In this document: in pieces, positions 4,357-23,621 of the stretch
Layout of the letters: the number at the start of each line of letters is the position of its first letter
Numbering within the stretch: the stretch's first letter is position 1
Source: a virus
Reading direction: 5' to 3' (one strand)
IMG/VR virus record: IMGVR_UViG_3300035254_000241
Span: 1-23,731 of that record
DNA: 23,731 nucleotides
Notes under the pieces: generated by a model
Told to the model about the DNA's origin: nothing
Seen by the model: the letters and a program-made list of their open reading frames with translations, nothing else
The model's database searches: none
Program-made: the position numbers and the translations under genes

Positions 4357-4923
4357 TCACTCAGCTTCGGCGGCTGCTTTCTTCGCCTTCTGCTCATCTT
4401 GATACTTCTTCAGGCCGTCAATAGCCGCTTGCGAAACTTCACGCTTCGGTTTGCCGGCTTCAAAGCATTCTTCAACTTTCTCGCGCTCGGCCACGATCCA
4501 ATCAGCCAGCTTTGTGTTGTCTTCGCCGACCAACTCAATGAGGCTCTCTTTGATTGCCGCATCTTTCTCTTCGCCTACGAGCCTCTTCTGGCCAGGCCAC
4601 TTAAAGCTCTTGGCGATTTCTGCTGCGTTCTCCACGAGAAAGGCATACTTTGGCTCACCGGTATGCGCTTCAACTACAGCGTCTAAGCCTTTTTTCAGCT
4701 TGTTGCGCTCAGCTTTGGTCACGCGTTTCACGGTACCTGTACCGAAAACATCAACCAGGTTGTCTTTGTTCCCAAGCAGCCAATCGGAAAGCTCTTGATT
4801 TGCTTCCGTCAAGGCCATCAGCGCACTGTGGACCTTCGGTAGACGCATGTGGTCTTCCGCTTCCTTCTTTGTGTTGAAGGTCGATCCGTCTTCTGCCTGA
4901 TATACTTGCTTAAGTTCTGACAT
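4357..4923 (-). CDS. Hypothetical protein with two internal repeats, 188 aa
   Basis: The ATG at 4923 has AAGGA about 9 bases upstream. Residues 5-26 (QVYQAEDGSTFNTKKEAEDH) match a short module, Y.A.DG..F.TK.EA..H, that I recall from many small phage proteins. After it come two related helical segments: about residues 33-83 (ANQELSDWLL then KRVTKAERNKLKKGL) and 124-177 (DNTKLADWIV then KREVSQAAIDGLKKY). Their shared pattern is LxDWx, a charged helix, then KRxV..A....LKK. The C-terminus is Lys/Ala/Glu-rich. It stands alone between the GC-rich gap and a terminator, so it probably has its own promoter. Function unknown. Confidence 0.8.
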   Translation of the reverse strand: MSELKQVYQAEDGSTFNTKKEAEDHMRLPKVHSALMALTEANQELSDWLLGNKDNLVDVFGTGTVKRVTKAERNKLKKGLDAVVEAHTGEPKYAFLVENAAEIAKSFKWPGQKRLVGEEKDAAIKESLIELVGEDNTKLADWIVAEREKVEECFEAGKPKREVSQAAIDGLKKYQDEQKAKKAAAEAE

Positions 4924-5258
4924 GCATCAATTCCTTAATCGTAATGAGTTATGAAGATATAGTTACCTTCACATAAGGTACCCGAATCCCCGCGAGGCAT
5001 CGCGGTTGATCTTATGGGTTAATTTAACGGGCTCAGCTGCGTTGCGGCCCAAGGGCTGCGCGAGCGTCGTCACCGCTTTTTCAGTTTTCCTCCTTGGGGA
5101 CACTCCCGGAAAGGTGTGCGCCCGTCACTCTCCTGCAAAAATTGCCGCGAGACGTACGCTGTCGGCCTCGCTGCGGTCGTTTTCGGGTGCGCTAATAGTC
5201 ACGCCTGCCACCGGCGGGCGTGTTGCACTGCAGCCCAGGCGGCTACTGGGAAATTGCC
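4924..5258 (-). other. GC-rich intergenic island without a clear gene
   Basis: This 335-base gap is the largest in the window. Bases 5041-5220 are 64% G+C by hand count (115 of 180), against 42% for a neighbouring coding line (4861-4920). On the minus strand it holds three short frames: a GTG frame ending at about 5126 whose last residues read RLAAIFAGE; a GTG frame overlapping it, read VTGAHLSGSVPKEEN; and a third with AAGGAGG upstream read VTTLAQPLGRNAAEPVKLTH. It also carries a palindrome (5016-5032) and a hairpin CCGCGA-TGCC-TCGCGG at about 4989-5004. It may be a gene remnant of foreign origin or a structured RNA; I cannot decide. The promoter of the 4357-4923 gene probably lies in its AT-rich left end. 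Confidence 0.5.
5016..5032. repeat. 17-bp palindromic element, copy 1
   Basis: GGGTTAATTTAACGGGC has an 11-base palindromic core (GTTAAWTTAAC). It differs by one central base from 20722-20738, which forms part of the terminator before SSB. Here no second stem arm or T run follows, so it is not obviously a terminator. It could be a protein-binding site. Confidence 0.5.
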
Positions 5259-5648
5259 TTACGTTTGATTGCCTAAAAGCTCTTTTATCCTGACTGCCTC
5301 TTGTATTTTTGTGTACTTGAAATCAAGGCAGCTCCTCATCCAACCCCAGCGACCGGATGTGAAGTCGCCGTCTTTAGGCTGAAAGAAACGCGGCTTGTGG
5401 TACTTCAGGCAACCCATGTGCATGTTAAACTCATCAGGTCTCCCAAATACGCATTCGTCGCAATGCCTAAGGAACGCTTGTTCCTTTTCAGGAAAGTGCT
5501 CCAATACTTCAATCTTGTACAGGAACCTTTGCGCTAAGTCCCTCATTGCGTTCGTTACGACGACTTTTTTATTAAACTCACAATCTGCGCAAAAATCATC
5601 GAAAGAGATTTGCTGGACAGAGTCGCCACATTCTTCACAAATAGGCAT
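5259..5648 (-). CDS. Zinc-ribbon-like hypothetical protein, 129 aa
   Basis: The ATG at 5648 shares a base with the preceding stop (TAATG). The frame runs on to a TTG at 5660, but coupling favours the ATG. Residues 4-23 carry two CxxC pairs (CEEC and CADC, 13 residues apart), a probable zinc ribbon. A second group, HCDEC then GCLKYH, may be another metal site in the middle of the protein. The C-terminal part is rich in aromatic and basic residues (GRWGWMRSCLDFKY). It is last in a gene run before the GC-rich gap. DNA or protein binding is inferred from the cysteines; family unknown. Confidence 0.7.
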   Translation of the reverse strand: MPICEECGDSVQQISFDDFCADCEFNKKVVVTNAMRDLAQRFLYKIEVLEHFPEKEQAFLRHCDECVFGRPDEFNMHMGCLKYHKPRFFQPKDGDFTSGRWGWMRSCLDFKYTKIQEAVRIKELLGNQT

Positions 5649-5992
5649 TAGAGGTGCCAACCATCGGCGGTTATCTCTCCTTTAACGTCAAGCTTGCCCG
5701 TCGTCACTTTCATCTTTCCTTTGAAAATAACTAATCGCTTTTGAAAGATGTCCCCTAAAAACTCTTGTTCGCCGCAAGCATTCAGGGCGGCATCATTCAT
5801 AAACCACTTGACTCCACCCATGTCGGTCACCTCGATCTCGCCGTCAACAATCAAGGGATCTGCGTAACACAAATAGCCTTCCACATACCTGTTCCGAATG
5901 TGTGCATTTCTTGCGGCTTCCGCAGGGGTATGACCTTTGCCCCAATAGCCTGTGTTGGTGACGACTGTGTATTTTTTGAGTTCTTCAGACAT
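5648..5992 (-). CDS. Hypothetical protein, 114 aa
   Basis: The ATG has GAGGAG 5-6 bases upstream and overlaps the previous gene by 8 bases. The N-terminal module YTVVTNTGYWGKGHTPAEAA, a beta strand followed by a G-rich turn and helix, recurs in small phage proteins of unknown role, as far as I recall. The rest is beta-rich, including LVIFKGKMKVTTGKLDV. No signal peptide or membrane segment. Function unknown. Confidence 0.7.
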   Translation of the reverse strand: MSEELKKYTVVTNTGYWGKGHTPAEAARNAHIRNRYVEGYLCYADPLIVDGEIEVTDMGGVKWFMNDAALNACGEQEFLGDIFQKRLVIFKGKMKVTTGKLDVKGEITADGWHL

Positions 5993-7270: not shown

Positions 7271-8121
7271 TCTCCGGGTACCTTGAATTTAGGAACAGAC
7301 GCGGGCTTGCCGGATTTCGACTCAAGCCTTTTTAAAAGTTCAGATACTCCCTCCTTTTTAGCAATGATCTCATCGTTGTGCCTTTTGGCGTCTGCAGCGT
7401 GCACGATGTTTGCCGGAATACTATTACAGATAGCAAAGTCTGCTTCGGTGGGGACAGCCCCCGGTACTCTGAAGCTCGGAACAGCTTTTTTTGAGCCGCC
7501 GTAGGCCGCGACCATTTCCTCTTTAGTTATGGCCGGCCAGAGCGGCACCTTAGTCAGCCAGTCAGGTGTCACTGTTTCGAATTGCGCGGTGCGGAATGCA
7601 GGGAGAGTCATTTTGTGGTTGATGTGGGCCTGATAAGCGGCTGTTGTGGGAAGAATATCCCGAAATTCAGGATAGACTACTTTTGGGTGCGGGGTACCAC
7701 CTTCTGGTAGCGCCTCCGGAAAGTCAAAGAGAACGTCATAGAGCTTTGCATACTCATGAGGCTTGCCTCTGTTTCTTTCAAAGTTCTCTAGCATACGTTT
7801 CCAACAGCGAAAAAGCCACGTATAATTTTCGCGGCCTTCGCAAAGCCAGTCTAACGCCGGGTCCTCCATGTTGACGCCTGCGAGCATTACGTAGCCCATC
7901 AGCTGAATTCTTCGGCCACTGCTGTCGAGCGCGTCGGTGTGGTGAACCCACCACTTGCGGTCGTTCCCGTTGTGCTTCACCCACAGAGGTCCGAAGCCGT
8001 CCAATCTGCGGTGGCAGCAGCTCATTAACTGCGCAGCTTCCATCAGCATTTTTGTCAGGTGGATATCACAGAGCTCGTCGGCGGCTCTCTCTGGGTTTTC
8101 GTTTGTGTAGAAAATGTTCAC
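7267..8121 (-). CDS. Conserved phage protein, possible DNA glycosylase-like family, 284 aa
   Basis: The start is GTG at 8121, overlapping the preceding stop as GTGA, with AAGGAG about 6 bases upstream. The N-terminal half has the signature CDIHLTKMLMEAAQLMSCCH followed by RRLDG and later WVHHTDALD and ENYTWLFRCW. The pattern CD.H..KM..E.AQ..S..HR..DG fits a protein family common in phages and large viruses that I recall being annotated as pyrimidine dimer DNA glycosylase-like, without firm biochemical support. The C-terminal ~100 residues are Pro-rich and less ordered, ending FKVPGE. A DNA repair or processing role is inference. The family match is from memory. Confidence 0.65.
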   Translation of the reverse strand: MNIFYTNENPERAADELCDIHLTKMLMEAAQLMSCCHRRLDGFGPLWVKHNGNDRKWWVHHTDALDSSGRRIQLMGYVMLAGVNMEDPALDWLCEGRENYTWLFRCWKRMLENFERNRGKPHEYAKLYDVLFDFPEALPEGGTPHPKVVYPEFRDILPTTAAYQAHINHKMTLPAFRTAQFETVTPDWLTKVPLWPAITKEEMVAAYGGSKKAVPSFRVPGAVPTEADFAICNSIPANIVHAADAKRHNDEIIAKKEGVSELLKRLESKSGKPASVPKFKVPGE

Positions 8122-12405: not shown

Positions 12406-12603
12406 TTAGCCTTTAAGGTTTTTGATTAACAGCGAGGGCTGACCTCTGTCTAACGGCCAATGGCGCTCTTGACCGCAGTCAACGCAGATCTTCAAATTCT
12501 GCGAGCGGAGTCTCACTACAGTTTCACATTTACAGTATTTCAACGGGATCTCCTTGATCCCAGGGTAGGGTTTTTCCTCCAAGTTGTTTGAAGTCTTCTT
12601 CAT
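12406..12603 (-). CDS. Small zinc-ribbon protein, 65 aa, overlapping the primase-helicase end
   Basis: The ATG at 12603 has AAAGGA 7-8 bases upstream, and the gene overlaps the last 74 bases of the primase-helicase gene in another frame. The 65-aa product holds a CxC (Cys24, Cys26) and a CxxC (Cys40, Cys43) separated by 13 residues, in the context YCKCETVVRL and ICVDCG, a typical one-zinc ribbon. The tail WPLDRGQPSLL resembles the end of small T7-like phage proteins known to me only as hypothetical. It sits between helicase and ligase and is probably translated with them. Confidence 0.75.
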   Translation of the reverse strand: MKKTSNNLEEKPYPGIKEIPLKYCKCETVVRLRSQNLKICVDCGQERHWPLDRGQPSLLIKNLKG

Positions 12604-15235
12604 TGCTATCCTTTGATACTTTAGTGACGTTACTTTCTATAACCTCATCAATAGCCATGTATCGCCCCGTTTCAGGAATAAATCGGGCACCGGGGACGCG
12701 ACCGGTTAGTCCCATTGTTCTTGCTTTTAAAACTGACATTTTCAGGCAATTTTGTTCCGCTACGCTGTCGGCAGTCATCGGTCGAGCAAACGCAATAATA
12801 TCAAAAGGAATCTGTTTTGTCGAGCCTGAGTTATGGGTGATGGTGTGGTTGCCTAAAAGAAAGCGCCCATTGCCGTCAAGCACAAAACCATAGTAGTCTT
12901 GTACACCCAGCGCCTCAACAGTGATGCCTCTCTTTAACGCATTGGTCTGTCTATCAACTTTGTTAACCTTCTGCGTAGGGATTTTATCAATATTCCCAGA
13001 GATCATGACTTGAAATATCTCGGAGCCATTTGAAGAATAATCACTTGAAATTATCTGAGACCTCATGGTACTGTAGAGGCCAAGAGATCTTGCAATGCTT
13101 TTCACCGTTTTTGCAAGTTCTTGCTCTTTCTGGTAGAAATAAAAATGACTGTCACGTGTTGAGTAAGAGCCATCTGTATCAAGCAAGCCCGCAAGAAGCT
13201 CTAGTCGCTGCGCTCTGCTGGCATATTGGTAAGCTGAAGGGATATGTTTATTTTTAAACAAGGCGAGGTCTTTCAACTTGTTAAGCATTTCTCCTTTTGT
13301 TTCTGTTATGAAGTTGAAATATTCTTTGTTGACATCTTTTGGACTTTTCAAGACTACGCCAAGCTCATTAGCCACTCTTTCAACAATACCTAAGCGAGCT
13401 GCGTCCATGATTCTGAAAGCGGATTTAGAGCCATCGCCAAGCCAAGCGCCTAAAGAGTAAGGTGGGATAAGAAGCTCTTGATGAGGTAAATCATAACCCT
13501 CGCTGTAGTGTTGCTTACATCTGTGTTGAAAACTGTCACTTTTATTTAAGAAATCTTCTACAGAAATATCAAATAATTTGTCATTACGCGACACTGTCAA
13601 GACATGGTCTTCATTACAAATGAAAGAATCATTTGAGGTTTTTGTTGTCACTCTGTACATTTGCTGCGAGCCGCGCTTTAACTTTAAAATCTGCCTAGGC
13701 TGGCCGTTGTCACCAATTAGGCAATTTCCGACTTTTAAATTTTGGACTAGTTCAGAAGTACCGTCCGAAAGCAAGATTTTCGTGTCTCTAGCAAGGCAGC
13801 CTTTTATATCATCTAGAGAAGGCAATCTTCCGTCTTCGAATGATTTTTTGTCGTTTGGGGTCTTCCGCAAGTGTGACACAAGACCAATCCACACGTCTGG
13901 ATATTTCTTAACTAATCTTAAGAGATCATTCATTATCTTGTCTTGCGCCTCGTTCCCTTGCAGGTTGTCTGTGCCCTCTGAGACTAATATTGTTATGTGG
14001 TCTATGAAAAGTTTCTTACAGCCTACTAGACACATGTACTCTAATCGGTCCATCACACTGCCGTCACTGACAGAGCCTTGGTGATCTAGTACTTCTAAGC
14101 GATCACCCGCAAACACTTGATCAAATCCCACTTTCAATTCAGCCAAAGGTATCTCTTCTATGGCTCTGTTGCGACGCAACTGCATTCCTGCTAACGCTTT
14201 TCCTGTGTCTCCGGGAGACTCTTCTAAGCTCACTATGCCTACTCGCTCTTCAGAAGTCTCTAGCGTATGCAGTATTATTTCACGCATCAAAGTACTTTTG
14301 CCACTGCCTGTTCCGGAGATAAATAGCGCTATTTCGCCGCCGCGCATTCCCTTTATCTTCGAGTTTAAGCCTGCTAAGCAAGGGGGATAGGGAATAGAAA
14401 CAACTGTGTCTGCCGCTTCAATCGCTGCCCATATGGCATCTCTCTTGATTATCCCCGAAGGTGTGTAGGAGGCAGAGTCAAAAATGCAACTCATCAGGGC
14501 TTTCTCGCCTAAGTCCACTAACACTTCGTTTGCGTCGTTCTTGGGTAGTTTTGTGATGAGTGCCTTGTCGTAACCAACTATTTTTGCGGCTATTTTTTGA
14601 GCTTTGTGGCCTGCGTCGTCTTCATCAAAACAGATTACGACTTCTTTAAAAGAGCGGATCCAAGAGCGATGCTCGACTAGGTGCTCGGCCATGGCTGACG
14701 AAGAGATACCTACAATAGGGTAAAACTTATTGTAGCGCCGATAAGACGCTTCGGCTACGGCAAGTGTGTCGCACTCACCCTCGCAGATGATCAGCCTTTT
14801 GCCGCCCCCGTTAAAATGTTCCTGCCCAAAGAGCATCTTTGAGCCGCTGGGCTCCCAACTGAATTCTTTTGGAAGTTTTCGTATTTTATTCTTCTCTCCG
14901 CTCTCGTACGGATAGTAGTGGTGATCAATGTTTCCATCTTCGTTGTACGAAATGCGAACGCCGTAAAACGTAGTTATGTCTTTAGTTATAGCTCTTGCTT
15001 CAAACCCTCTTATTTTGTAGGTTAAAATTTCTGCAGCACTTCTCCGCTTCATTGTGAAATTTTTAGGGCTGGGTGGCGGCGGTTTTGGAACATCAACCTT
15101 TCCGCTTACAACTTGCTCTTTTGTAAATGCTTTTTCACAAGAGAAACACTTAGCGCCTCCGTCCTCGTAAATTTGCAGCGCATCTGATGACGTGCACGAT
15201 AGACAAGGACGGTTCTTTCCAACTATCCTGCCCAT
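12530..15235 (-). CDS. T7 gp4-like primase-helicase interrupted by an intein, 901 aa
   Basis: The host protein without its intein is 578 aa, close to T7 gp4 (566 aa). In order: a four-cysteine zinc finger (Cys11, 14, 30, 33) that reads the primase site; a TOPRIM primase core (CEGECDTLAV, Glu152; CFDEDDAG, Asp204/206); and a hexameric RecA-type helicase with Walker A GTGSGKST (Lys313) and Walker B LFIDH (Asp412). Residues 480-802 are an intein inserted after IKG and before SGSTKQ. The final extein is SGSTKQIPFDIIAFARP to the C-terminus, which ends WDQGDPVEIL. Activity should need splicing, since the insertion splits a conserved helicase motif. The start ATG has only a weak ribosome binding site. 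Confidence 0.95.
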   Translation of the reverse strand: MGRIVGKNRPCLSCTSSDALQIYEDGGAKCFSCEKAFTKEQVVSGKVDVPKPPPPSPKNFTMKRRSAAEILTYKIRGFEARAITKDITTFYGVRISYNEDGNIDHHYYPYESGEKNKIRKLPKEFSWEPSGSKMLFGQEHFNGGGKRLIICEGECDTLAVAEASYRRYNKFYPIVGISSSAMAEHLVEHRSWIRSFKEVVICFDEDDAGHKAQKIAAKIVGYDKALITKLPKNDANEVLVDLGEKALMSCIFDSASYTPSGIIKRDAIWAAIEAADTVVSIPYPPCLAGLNSKIKGMRGGEIALFISGTGSGKSTLMREIILHTLETSEERVGIVSLEESPGDTGKALAGMQLRRNRAIEEIPLAELKVGFDQVFAGDRLEVLDHQGSVSDGSVMDRLEYMCLVGCKKLFIDHITILVSEGTDNLQGNEAQDKIMNDLLRLVKKYPDVWIGLVSHLRKTPNDKKSFEDGRLPSLDDIKGCLARDTKILLSDGTSELVQNLKVGNCLIGDNGQPRQILKLKRGSQQMYRVTTKTSNDSFICNEDHVLTVSRNDKLFDISVEDFLNKSDSFQHRCKQHYSEGYDLPHQELLIPPYSLGAWLGDGSKSAFRIMDAARLGIVERVANELGVVLKSPKDVNKEYFNFITETKGEMLNKLKDLALFKNKHIPSAYQYASRAQRLELLAGLLDTDGSYSTRDSHFYFYQKEQELAKTVKSIARSLGLYSTMRSQIISSDYSSNGSEIFQVMISGNIDKIPTQKVNKVDRQTNALKRGITVEALGVQDYYGFVLDGNGRFLLGNHTITHNSGSTKQIPFDIIAFARPMTADSVAEQNCLKMSVLKARTMGLTGRVPGARFIPETGRYMAIDEVIESNVTKVSKDSNEEDFKQLGGKTLPWDQGDPVEIL
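12830..13798 (-). mobile_element. Intein with LAGLIDADG homing endonuclease, 323 aa
   Basis: The insert begins with the catalytic Cys in CLARDTKILLSDG (splicing block A), has block B with CNEDHVLTV (His), and ends HTITHN (block G, penultimate His, terminal Asn), followed by Ser as the +1 extein residue. Cys1, His-Asn and Ser+1 are all the residues needed for class 1 protein splicing. Two LAGLIDADG-type helices are visible, LGAWLGDGS (residues 116-124) and LLAGLLDTDGS (201-211), each with its acidic residue, so the homing endonuclease may be active. The region is AT-richer than the flanking exteins by eye, as expected for a mobile insert. Confidence 0.93.
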
Positions 15236-20112: not shown

Positions 20113-20676
20113 TTAAAACCTCGGAGTTTCTCTGGCTTGGTCTGAATCTGCTGTCGGCTCTTTCTTCAAGTCTTCTTTCTTTTCCGGAGGAGCTTCTTCA
20201 GGCTCAGGATTTACAACTGTGGTACCGCCTTCCTGCTCCTCGAAATCATCGTCGTGAACTTTTGGGACGTAAACAATGTGGTGTACCAGTTGAATACCCA
20301 TCAAGACTGAAACAATTTGAGTCCCGCCTTCGTCTTTCGGCGCTTCATATTGGTACACGCGGACGTGGCCGATAGAGCCGTTGCCGATTGACGTTGGATC
20401 CACGTCGTTGAGCTCGCCGTCGATAATTGTCGGCGGAGCGCCGTTGGAACCGTCAGCTTTGACACACTTTTTACGAAGATTCGCAGAGAAATATGTCTCG
20501 CCCTCGTCAGGCACAATAGCTTTCACTTTGATGTTTGCCGCTTCCCACTCTTTCTTTTGTACTTTATCTGTGGTGCGCAACTGAACGTCCCAAGAAGGTT
20601 TCACTCTGCTGAAGCGGGTGTTCGGTTTTTTCGGATTAACCTGGGGATACCAAATTTCACAGTTTCTGAGAATCAT
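20113..20676 (-). CDS. ssDNA-binding protein, T7 gp2.5-like, 187 aa
   Basis: The protein has MILRNCEIWYPQ, WDVQLRTTDK, SIGNGSIGHVRVYQY and VSVLMGIQLVHHIVY, the conserved strands of a family of podophage SSBs (OB fold, DUF2815/gp2.5 type). Beyond residue 140 the tail is acidic and Pro/Glu-rich (DDDFEEQEGG onward) and ends with Phe, as in gp2.5, where the acidic tail with its terminal aromatic residue contacts polymerase and helicase. It would coat ssDNA and coordinate the replisome. AAGG lies 9 bases before the ATG. It opens the replication block after a terminator and directly follows the 17-bp element at 20688-20704. Confidence 0.9.
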   Translation of the reverse strand: MILRNCEIWYPQVNPKKPNTRFSRVKPSWDVQLRTTDKVQKKEWEAANIKVKAIVPDEGETYFSANLRKKCVKADGSNGAPPTIIDGELNDVDPTSIGNGSIGHVRVYQYEAPKDEGGTQIVSVLMGIQLVHHIVYVPKVHDDDFEEQEGGTTVVNPEPEEAPPEKKEDLKKEPTADSDQARETPRF

Positions 20677-20687
20677 GTTATTACCTT

Positions 20688-20704
20688 AGTCATTTAACAG
20701 TCAT
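20688..20704 (-). promoter_or_regulatory. 17-bp repeated element before SSB, candidate phage promoter or operator
   Basis: On the plus strand AGTCATTTAACAGTCAT; 15 of 17 bases match 23588-23604. On the minus strand both hold two ATGACT boxes 11 bases apart. This copy starts right after a terminator T run and ends 11 bases before the SSB ATG. Confidence 0.5.
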
Positions 20705-20706
20705 TT

Positions 20707-20738
20707 AAAAAGCCCGTCGCCGGGTTAAATTAACGGGC
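20707..20738 (-). terminator. Rho-independent terminator between RNA polymerase and SSB units
   Basis: GCCCGT pairs with ACGGGC around a 15-base loop, followed on the minus strand by TTTTT. The 5' arm and loop contain the palindromic element GGGTTAAATTAACGGGC (20722-20738), nearly the same as 5016-5032. An alternative small hairpin with CCCG-GCGA-CGGG competes with it. Confidence 0.7.
20722..20738. repeat. 17-bp palindromic element, copy 2
   Basis: GGGTTAAATTAACGGGC, one base different from 5016-5032. Here it forms the 5' arm and part of the loop of a terminator. Confidence 0.5.
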
Positions 20739-20765: not shown

Positions 20766-21173
20766 CTACGCGGCATCCCATTCGTCCAGCTCGCTCCGGA
20801 GCTCGGGCGGCATTTCTAGGTCATCGCTGAACAAGAAGATTCTGCCAAAGCCATCATTAACAAGTACCAGGACTTGCCAGATGTTACCCGACCTTTCGGC
20901 GTATTCCCATCTGACGAACTCTGTGCCAGATGGAAATTGAGCTAAATTGAGCATATGCCCACTTTCTTTCAGAAGTTCAACTTCCGGATAATCCTGCGTC
21001 AACTCTCCCGAAGACTCCATGTACACCAGATGGCCCATGTGGTCCATCGTAAGATCTTCTTCCGGATCATCCACAAAATTTCTGAAGCAGAGATCATATT
21101 GCTTCATTGCCACTTCTTTTATTTCAGGGTTTTCTAGGGCCTCAATGTCGGCCAGCGATTTCATTATGATCAT
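20766..21173 (-). CDS. Acidic hypothetical protein, 135 aa
   Basis: The ATG at 21173 overlaps the RNA polymerase stop as ATGA, with GGAG 12 bases upstream; a second ATG three codons later is also possible. The protein is strongly acidic throughout (FVDDPEEDLTMDHMG, SDDLEMPPELRSELDEWD) with a beta-like middle (WQVLVLVNDGFGRIFLF). It may be a protein or DNA mimic, such as an inhibitor of a host enzyme. That fits its position next to the phage RNA polymerase, but nothing specific identifies it. The gene is the last before the terminator at 20707-20738. Confidence 0.7.
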   Translation of the reverse strand: MIIMKSLADIEALENPEIKEVAMKQYDLCFRNFVDDPEEDLTMDHMGHLVYMESSGELTQDYPEVELLKESGHMLNLAQFPSGTEFVRWEYAERSGNIWQVLVLVNDGFGRIFLFSDDLEMPPELRSELDEWDAA

Positions 21174-23401
21174 GAAAAACAATACTCCGAGTCAAGTACT
21201 AAAGATAAGTCTAATGTGCCTTTGTTTAGCTGAGCGTCGTCTGCGCCAATGTCTTCAAAGATAGCAGCTAGGGGCTCTGTTTGGTAAAGCTCTAAAAAGG
21301 ACTCACGAACAATTGTGTATAAATCGTCCATGTCAGCCAGCAGCGCGCCAAAAGAGTCGTGAACGGTTGTCACGGGAAAATTGGCGCGGCAGCTTGTAAC
21401 AGTTAAGTGGGCTGCGTCAAGACTGTGAATAATGTTTGGGGATGCTCCTTGTGATTGTTTCCCTTTAGATGGTTTTGGAAGCTCCAGATAAGAGATACTG
21501 AGCTGGAGAGTGTTTTCGTAATAGCCGGTTTTCTTTTTCTCCCCCGACGGTGGTCCGTATTGTACCCAGGTCTTCTTAACTTCTCCTTCAACGTAATGTT
21601 GGACTACCGGGAAGTGCGTTAGCGGTACTGTCCAAGAAAGAAACTCACCGGCTTTTTCGGCAGCTTTGCCCGCTTGCTCAAAAGTAGACAGCAAACGCAT
21701 GGGCCTTTCCAGACAAGTTTCGCAAACTTTGAAGAGGCTTCTCCCCAGATAGGCACCCCAGGAGTGCTCCATAAAAGTCAGTAACTCTATGCCGTGCCGC
21801 CTTGAGTCATCGATAACCTGTTCGCCAAGACCGTAGGGCTTTGCTCCATACGGAAGAGTCATAGTTCCTCTTTTAACAACTTTCCGCTTGTGCTTTGAGT
21901 CGTGGATTCTTAACCAGAAAACAGGAGCGGCTCTCACTAATATGGCTCTGTACTTTTCTCGGTACGCTAAGAGTTCTTTGACTAGCTCTTTTCGCGTCTC
22001 GGTCCGGGGCTCCGTGGCATGCACTCGCTTTTTGATTTCAATGATCGTGTCTATGCATTTTTCGGCAGTCTTAATAGCCCTCCCCGACATCTCGGCTTTT
22101 GCGCGGTCTAGCTCTGCCCACATGTGGTGTGCCACAAACATATACAAGTCACCGGGAAGTTCTGAAGGCACAAGATTAACGTGAGGGGCGGTTATTTCGT
22201 CTAGCATTAAAGCTGAAAGATGCTGGCTTCCGTTGTTGGTTCCGTCTACAAACGCTTCTAAGTGGGATTCATAGGAGTAGTCGTCTGAATCCCCCATTTG
22301 GTGTAGCCGCAGCTTTAAGAATTCAACGCATGCCGCTAAAAACTGCCAAGGCTTGTCTGCATTCATCCAGTTCTGATTTACTTTCGGATTCTCGGCATAG
22401 GAGACAATTATCTCTTCGTTGTCAAGTACCCACATGTACCTGTCTTTCAAAGGTATCTTGTCTGTTTTTGCCTCGTCCTCTCTTCCGGCGTCACCTGCCC
22501 AATTGGAAGAGATACTCACGCACAGCCAAAAGAAGCCCTGTTTTCCGATAGCCTTCTTGTCATCTCGCAGTAGTAGCCCTTTGGCTAAGTCTGAGCCTTG
22601 CTCGTTAAGGTACGCTGTAGAAACATACTTGCGACCTCGAAAATCAAACGTGTACAAGTGGTAAAAAGTGCTGTGTAAGAACCTGGCGGCGATGTTGCTA
22701 ATTGCTCGCGTTTCTCTCATTTTAGTGGACCGCGCTTCAGAGCTGTGGGCGCGCCAGATATTATTGAACGCAGCTGCTCTGTTTCGGAAGGCCCATAAAT
22801 GGATCTCGTAAACGTCCCGGTTGATCCGCCAGCCTGTCTGCTGGGACTTGTTTACTGTTTCAAACACAAGCGGGTGGTCTTCTGGGGTTAGTGTTTCGCG
22901 TATCTTGTGGTTTGTTTTGACCAACAGAGCTCCTGTCTCGTGGCGGAAGCTCTCCCAATCAGCATAAGGGGTTTCTGAAGGTATTTTTTGAATAGTGGCC
23001 GGAGGTAACTGCGCCCAAAGTTTTTGGATGCCCTCGTCGTCGACAACTTCCACAAGATACGTGGCGTGTCGCCCTTTGCCACTCGGGCCTATTTTTACTT
23101 TGATATAGCCTAGCTGTTCGAAACTGTATAAAATAAACGCTCCGGTCTTCGCGGCTAGGGCAGTATCTTTTTGTTTACTTTCTTGGGAAAGCAGTTTGCG
23201 GCCAATCGCGCAAATCGTTTCGGTTAGAAATAAGGGTGCGGGGTTCAGCCCTTTTTTAGGTCTTGTATACAAGTAGACCGTTCCGATTATGTTCCCGATG
23301 TGGGCCTCTAAGTTTACTTCTTTGAGGTACTTCAATGGGTTTCGTGGGGAGATCTCTGTGGACACTCTATGATTCAAATTGCCCAGAATTCTCTCAAACA
23401 T
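21170..23401 (-). CDS. T7-type single-subunit RNA polymerase, 743 aa
   Basis: All key residues of this family are visible: FDFRGRKY (Arg255, Arg257, Tyr259), motif A FVDGTNNGSQH (Asp386), motif B RKVVKRGTMTLPYGAK (Arg506, Lys510, Tyr518), SPNIIHSLDAAHL, and motif C VHDSFG (His681, Asp682). The C-terminus ends EYCFS, corresponding to the FAFA foot of T7. It is 140 residues shorter than the T7 enzyme, and all of the loss is N-terminal: about 168 residues fewer precede the DFRGR motif, where T7 holds its promoter-binding and RNA-exit domain. AAAGGA lies 8 bases before the ATG, overlapping the end of a membrane-peptide gene in the same frame. It would transcribe the phage genome from its own promoters. 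Confidence 0.97.
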   Translation of the reverse strand: MFERILGNLNHRVSTEISPRNPLKYLKEVNLEAHIGNIIGTVYLYTRPKKGLNPAPLFLTETICAIGRKLLSQESKQKDTALAAKTGAFILYSFEQLGYIKVKIGPSGKGRHATYLVEVVDDEGIQKLWAQLPPATIQKIPSETPYADWESFRHETGALLVKTNHKIRETLTPEDHPLVFETVNKSQQTGWRINRDVYEIHLWAFRNRAAAFNNIWRAHSSEARSTKMRETRAISNIAARFLHSTFYHLYTFDFRGRKYVSTAYLNEQGSDLAKGLLLRDDKKAIGKQGFFWLCVSISSNWAGDAGREDEAKTDKIPLKDRYMWVLDNEEIIVSYAENPKVNQNWMNADKPWQFLAACVEFLKLRLHQMGDSDDYSYESHLEAFVDGTNNGSQHLSALMLDEITAPHVNLVPSELPGDLYMFVAHHMWAELDRAKAEMSGRAIKTAEKCIDTIIEIKKRVHATEPRTETRKELVKELLAYREKYRAILVRAAPVFWLRIHDSKHKRKVVKRGTMTLPYGAKPYGLGEQVIDDSRRHGIELLTFMEHSWGAYLGRSLFKVCETCLERPMRLLSTFEQAGKAAEKAGEFLSWTVPLTHFPVVQHYVEGEVKKTWVQYGPPSGEKKKTGYYENTLQLSISYLELPKPSKGKQSQGASPNIIHSLDAAHLTVTSCRANFPVTTVHDSFGALLADMDDLYTIVRESFLELYQTEPLAAIFEDIGADDAQLNKGTLDLSLVLDSEYCFS

Positions 23402-23587: not shown

Positions 23588-23604
23588 AGTCATTTAGTAG
23601 TCAT
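23588..23604 (-). promoter_or_regulatory. 17-bp repeated element upstream of RNA polymerase unit
   Basis: On the plus strand AGTCATTTAGTAGTCAT, matching 20688-20704 at 15 of 17 positions. On the minus strand it comes straight after a run of 17 T and lies 51 bases before the membrane-peptide start. Candidate phage promoter, operator or processing site. Confidence 0.5.
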
Positions 23605-23621
23605 AAAAAAAAAAAAAAAAA
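23605..23621 (-). repeat. Homopolymer run of 17 T (17 A on plus strand)
   Basis: Seventeen identical bases with no interruption. It may be the U tract of the terminator whose hairpin lies 14 bases upstream, although the gap is larger than normal. The exact length is prone to sequencing error. Confidence 0.8.

Follow-up and report, generated by a model that had tools for sequence, protein, structure and literature searches.

A GC-rich noncoding phage gap as the probable control region of an operon that begins with a gp9-family gene

The closest described systems are EBPR siphovirus 1 (JF412302), whose publication names no promoter of the kind considered here in its text (PMC3097231), and phages with RNA polymerases of their own. 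Promoters of T7-like phage polymerases are short conserved intergenic elements in gene sense, present in several copies per genome and coherent within a genome. Phage N4 possesses early promoters used by its virion RNA polymerase (PMC4496689). In Thermus phage P23-45, a polymerase fused to a virion protein is reported to be accompanied by an early non-virion polymerase (PMC10770324). The P23-45 virion polymerase is homologous to cellular enzymes and fused to the tail tape, whereas the polymerases considered below are T7-like, and in the relatives, the partner in the fusion is a head morphogenesis protein.

The analyzed DNA, hereafter the window, comprises positions 1–23,731 of the IMG/VR record IMGVR_UViG_3300035254_000241 (23,731 nt), and its gene strand is the minus strand. 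Within the gap at 4924–5258 (335 nt), the gene strand lacks ORFs of ≥60 aa, and no other gap of this kind in the window is as large. The features of the gap and the related elements of the window are as follows, where motifs A and B are the two conserved elements described below.

5259–5660, minus strand: upstream gene, 133 aa, cysteine-rich; its syntenic homologues are 65% (L134) and 54% (L136, L137) identical
5031–5258, minus strand: noncoding spacer of 228 nt with 64% G+C, which separates the upstream gene from motif B and corresponds to the ~140-nt GC-rich block that relatives have at this place
5016–5030, minus strand: motif B, CCGTTAAATTAACCC, promoter-like, an exact copy of the consensus, recognized by its recurrence in relatives
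4924–5015, minus strand: leader of the gp9-family gene, which contains a strong hairpin and folds on the gene strand with z of about −2 to −3
4990–5005, minus strand: predicted hairpin CCGCGA-TGCC-TCGCGG within the leader
4969–4994, minus strand: motif A-like element CGCGGGGATTCG-GGTACCTTATGTGA, with the core at 4982–4969 (2 mismatches to GGTATCTTATATGA)
4931–4936, minus strand: AAGGAA, the ribosome binding site of the gp9-family gene, ahead of its start codon and read from the sequence
4357–4923, minus strand: gene of the gp9 family encoding 188 aa, homologous to gp9 of EBPR siphovirus 1
20722–20736, minus strand: second copy of motif B, CCGTTAATTTAACCC, located downstream of the RNA polymerase gene in the gap that precedes the gene at 20113–20676
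21170–23401, minus strand: T7-like single-subunit RNA polymerase of 743 aa, the candidate enzyme for reading motif B

The gap is a real, GC-rich, noncoding intergenic region. The earlier note, made from the sequence alone, had given 64% G+C for positions 5041–5220; the value was 63.9% against a window mean of 47.9%, which is within the top 0.3% of 180-nt segments, the highest of which is a coding one (12142, 67.8%). Its description as the only large gap was roughly right: the segment 17226–17530 (305 nt) is occupied by two 59-aa ORFs. Searches for tRNA and tmRNA genes, as well as for host sigma-70 promoters in the gap region, returned none. The gene strand of the gap shows no GC hairpin with a T run behind it, as an intrinsic terminator would have; terminator-like sites are present on the plus strand only.

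Several short frames of 22, 28, and 44 aa with GTG or TTG starts overlap in the gap, and the opposite strand has a 95-aa frame, as could be the case if small coding genes had escaped detection. The earlier note had described the short frames as resembling coupled genes, one of them following a perfect AAGGAGG. This sequence exists (5095–5089, minus strand; another AAGGAGG is found in the window at 7356), but the closest GTG (5073) is 15 nt off, too far for a normal ribosome site. The G+C content is flat over codon positions in the gap (64/64/64 vs 54/37/52 in the window genes) and codon scores fall within the wrong-frame range; therefore, the gap has no coding signal, and the notion of coupled small genes is not borne out. 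The protein-family search of the short frames found no match, and the six frames of the GC-rich block in 46 relatives are open no more than by chance (open frames 30 and 36 vs 30.6 and 32.1 expected). The short frames look like chance, and undetected small genes are a highly improbable explanation of the gap.

The G+C content far above that of the neighbors, together with the lack of similar sequence in close relatives outside motif B, could also indicate a foreign fragment originating from a P4-type satellite, host DNA, or a prophage; the earlier note had proposed both a likeness to enterobacterial P4-type prophages and the capture of a piece of satellite or host sequence. Comparison of the gap with 50,697 phage records and 20,395 E. 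coli records by blastn gave no match, and tblastn against phages and plasmids gave nothing above chance; no similarity to enterobacterial P4-type prophages emerged. The peptide pattern ARH[S/T]PAKIAAR occurred in none of the IMG/VR contigs and once, as a chance match, in 84,980 genomes, while 398 genomes sampled from one bacterial phylum yielded a single 37-nt match, which is at chance level for that sampling. One IMG/VR match to the plus-strand translation (L004, 30 residues, antisense to a tail gene) was judged to be due to chance. Moreover, the spacers of syntenic relatives are likewise GC-rich: 69% vs 51% for the locus in L134, and 54%–57% vs 44%–45% in L136 and L137 (57% vs 44% in L137). 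This is nearly the situation, a GC-rich plain spacer in relatives, that the earlier note itself had named as speaking against its proposal. The same block is conserved in 46 relatives, and a foreign origin of the gap is scarcely credible.

The gp9-family gene downstream of the gap had one database relative, gp9 of EBPR siphovirus 1, with 42% identity. Comparison of gaps revealed the 15-nt element CCGTTAAATTAACCC (gene strand), designated motif B, in four gaps of EBPR siphovirus 1, in one of them directly before gp9, and twice in the window, at 5030–5016 and 20736–20722, with every copy in gene sense. With the motif taken from the window alone and ≤2 mismatches allowed, EBPR siphovirus 1 contains 4 copies, whereas permuted motifs average 0.09 matches in this genome. 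All four copies are intergenic and in gene sense. The motif is not annotated in JF412302. The arrangement in that phage is like that in the window, with the gp9 homologue directly downstream of motif B and a GC-rich spacer upstream; however, the spacer is shorter (67 nt upstream of motif B), and a copy of motif A was not found.

Further relatives were recovered by the motif scan and a ten-row alignment of the gp9 family. The exact scan of IMG/VR revealed motif B in at least 119 stretches, including many contigs with multiple copies, and many of these loci carry orthologues of the polymerase, DNA polymerase, primase-helicase, and other genes of the window in the same order. Whole contigs contain 1–8 copies, exclusively on one strand, with no copies on the other strand and none of the reversed pattern. 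Seventy-seven of 80 distinct copies are located outside ORFs of ≥100 aa, where 19% of random positions fall. With its conserved flanks, the consensus reads AMC-CCGTTAAATTAACCC-W. In genomes G442, G443, G444, and G445, the variant CGTTAAATTAATGA replaces the CCC form genome-wide, and the two forms are mutually exclusive between genomes, as expected if a factor encoded by the phage acts on the site in trans. Motif B was not found in phages DSS3_PM1 and Kolga. A literature search for the strings of motifs A and B, with most subscription journals outside its coverage, found no phage paper.

To avoid circularity, gp9 loci were also selected by the gp9 protein family alone. Motif B with ≤2 mismatches was present upstream of the gp9-family gene in 64 of these 77 loci, in 38 of them as an exact copy. 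Control windows contained the motif in 9 of 527 cases; all nine matches were exact and are probably other true copies of motif B.

A repeated element of the AAATGACT type precedes two genes of the window (20688–20711 and 23588–23611, minus strand), with one copy adjoining a run of 17 T, and the similar sequence AAAAAATGACTAAGG comes after motif B in L054 and L074.

The likely reader of motif B would be the phage's own T7-like RNA polymerase. The Pfam family PF00940 was matched by 38 of 44 contigs with motif B, and an orthologue of the window's 743-aa enzyme was found in 21 of 22 contigs of the protein-selected set, with 49%–70% identity where full length. Phages with more distant polymerases (27%–34% identity) lack the motif. 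In many genomes, including that of the window, a copy of motif B is located close downstream of the polymerase gene, and in several genomes, one copy lies 3–4 kb upstream of it. Several features by which promoters of a phage polymerase may be recognized are present: the phage encodes a single-subunit RNA polymerase, and motif B is recurrent, intergenic, in gene sense, coherent within a phage, and different or absent among phages with diverged polymerases. Motif B shares these properties with the promoters of T7-like phages, from which it differs in its near-palindromic core. Its sequence is unrelated to the T7 consensus.

The near-palindromic core (GTTAA-W-TTAAC), together with the finding that no conserved base that could mark a start site was seen 3′ of motif B, means that the motif could instead be an operator or another protein-binding site, recognized by a phage regulator such as a repressor, an anti-terminator, or a DNA-packaging protein. 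Tandem pairs of motif B spaced by ~46–156 bp, which are present in many genomes, would be consistent with such a site. On the contrary, the flanks of the motif are asymmetric and conserved (AMC before and CCCW after), and all copies within a genome have one orientation, which a symmetric operator does not need. We consider a regulator-binding site rather unlikely and a promoter read by the phage polymerase the preferred assignment of motif B.

Relatives also encode a giant protein of about 1,550 aa (L015:3642–8276; also L018, L050, and DSS3_PM1 42912–44033), which resembles head-morphogenesis proteins at its N-terminus and contains a T7-like RNA polymerase domain nearer the C-terminus. It may be a polymerase that is joined to a minor head protein and delivered with the virion. 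Tandem motif B pairs (L015:8623–8751, L036:4–174, and many others) often occur right after the gene of this giant protein, and in many of them, a C-rich stretch follows soon after the first copy. In EBPR siphovirus 1 (JF412302 25771–31144; L006/L007), the giant polymerase appears to be split: both gp47, annotated as "head protein," and gp49 match PF00940 and are located on either side of the HNH endonuclease gp48, with intron-like sequence within this region at 28930–29080. The gene of the free polymerase is interrupted in several relatives (G454, G456, G460, G446, G447, and G448), often near residue 519. The interruption takes the form of longer open frames (1022 and 926 aa) or of stops, which suggests that inteins or introns occupy a common site. 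In the window, the primase-helicase gene (12530–15235) harbors an intein (Hom_end_hint, LAGLIDADG) from residue ~480, while its homologues in L030, L034, and L054 are contiguous at this point.

A second element, motif A (TGCGSAAAAAnnGGTATCTTATATGAwA), is common to some of the leaders between motif B and gp9. Allowing ≤2 mismatches, it was detected in 11 of 46 gp9 leaders, as compared to 0 of 920 shuffles. Motif A was found in 34 of 39 contigs, mostly in 1–5 copies and nearly always with the same orientation as motif B, and 38 of 40 distinct copies are outside ORFs of ≥100 aa. A ribosome site and an ATG come after all 40 copies, the median distance being 45 nt (quartiles 36–54). The copy in the gap is degenerate (4982–4969, 2 mismatches) and precedes the start codon of gp9 by exactly 45 nt, while an exact copy is present in the window's phage upstream of the polymerase gene (L003:2166), and in relatives, motif A often occurs within a few kb upstream of this gene. 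Clustering upstream of the second polymerase gene, a GC-rich piece before the core, and the presence in relatives of another, giant polymerase that is part of a head protein fusion are points of likeness to the N4 early promoters (PMC4496689). The inverted repeats flanking motif A exceed permuted arms on average (mean stem 2.7 vs 2.1, sd 0.16) but, unlike in N4, are long in a minority of copies (≥5 pairs in 7 of 40), so that an N4-like hairpin promoter is possible rather than established.

The GC-rich block and its folding, the latter relative to dinucleotide shuffles, were measured in 46 non-redundant gp9 loci. From −140 to motif B, each 20-nt bin has a G+C content 11 to 24 points above the locus mean, while beyond −160 and 3′ of motif B the excess is near zero, which gives the block a sharp edge. 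Such a block is absent at 52 other copies of motif B. The RNA of the gene strand folds better than the shuffles (mean z −1.17, p = 4e-7), unlike the antisense RNA (mean z −0.29, p = 0.10), and the paired difference between the strands has p = 5e-6. Loci L134, L136, and L137 retain homologues on both sides of the spacer (the gp9 proteins are 60%–62% identical), but no sequence likeness of their spacers to that of the window was detectable except around motif B. Therefore, composition, place, and folding bias are kept while the sequence turns over. ORFs of >100 aa cover the GC-rich stretch in one clade, where it may be coding.

A stable small noncoding RNA, or a structured 3′ end of the upstream transcript, with a function of its own would account for the confinement of the sharp ~140-nt block to the gp9 locus and for the strand-specific folding, and would be compatible with motif B acting as a promoter. 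Sequence blocks such as AAGCGGCCCGAGG recur in subsets of relatives, as might be expected of an RNA, although they are not clearly above shuffles. The Rfam 15 covariance models gave no match in the window or the spacers of relatives, and no consensus fold with covariation was obtained either by RNAalifold on MAFFT alignments or with our own Sankoff-type structure-aware aligner, the alignments being possibly inadequate at such divergence. The block is possibly a noncoding RNA element, and we regard an independent function of this RNA as a tentative option. The structured RNA suggested in the earlier note is supported by the folding bias of the gene strand in 46 relatives and not by the covariance-model search it proposed or by a consensus structure. 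From its overall picture, the GC-rich gap and, in part, the structured RNA stand, while the coupled micro-genes and the foreign origin are not supported.

The reading we prefer, with a probability of about 0.68, is that the gap is the control region of an operon starting with the gp9-family gene. Motif B (5030–5016) would be a promoter for a phage-encoded factor, most likely the 743-aa T7-like RNA polymerase of the phage, and the operon, beginning at the gp9-family gene (4923–4357), would be transcribed from this region. The weak motif A of the gap may be what is left of a second type of promoter, or a weak version of it; in relatives, this type is clustered upstream of the polymerase gene. 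The GC-rich block would be a conserved noncoding element, which, folded in the RNA of the upstream transcript, may insulate or end this transcript or act as a small RNA. We infer promoter activity, the pairing of each motif with a polymerase, and any function of the block from sequence comparisons. A more speculative and doubtful scheme would combine a new, fast-evolving noncoding RNA at a fixed place with a division of labor between two polymerases, where motifs A and B would serve as promoters of the head-fused, virion-delivered enzyme and of the free T7-like enzyme, respectively.

Motifs A and B make gene control accessible from sequence in a large group of environmental phages, most of them uncultured, for which one closely related annotated record, a partial one, was found. 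They predict operon starts, allow a direct test of which polymerase uses which motif, and might be a source of new orthogonal pairs of polymerase and promoter. The GC-rich block is an example of how composition, place, and folding bias can be maintained while the sequence turns over completely, and it is a candidate for a new class of RNA.
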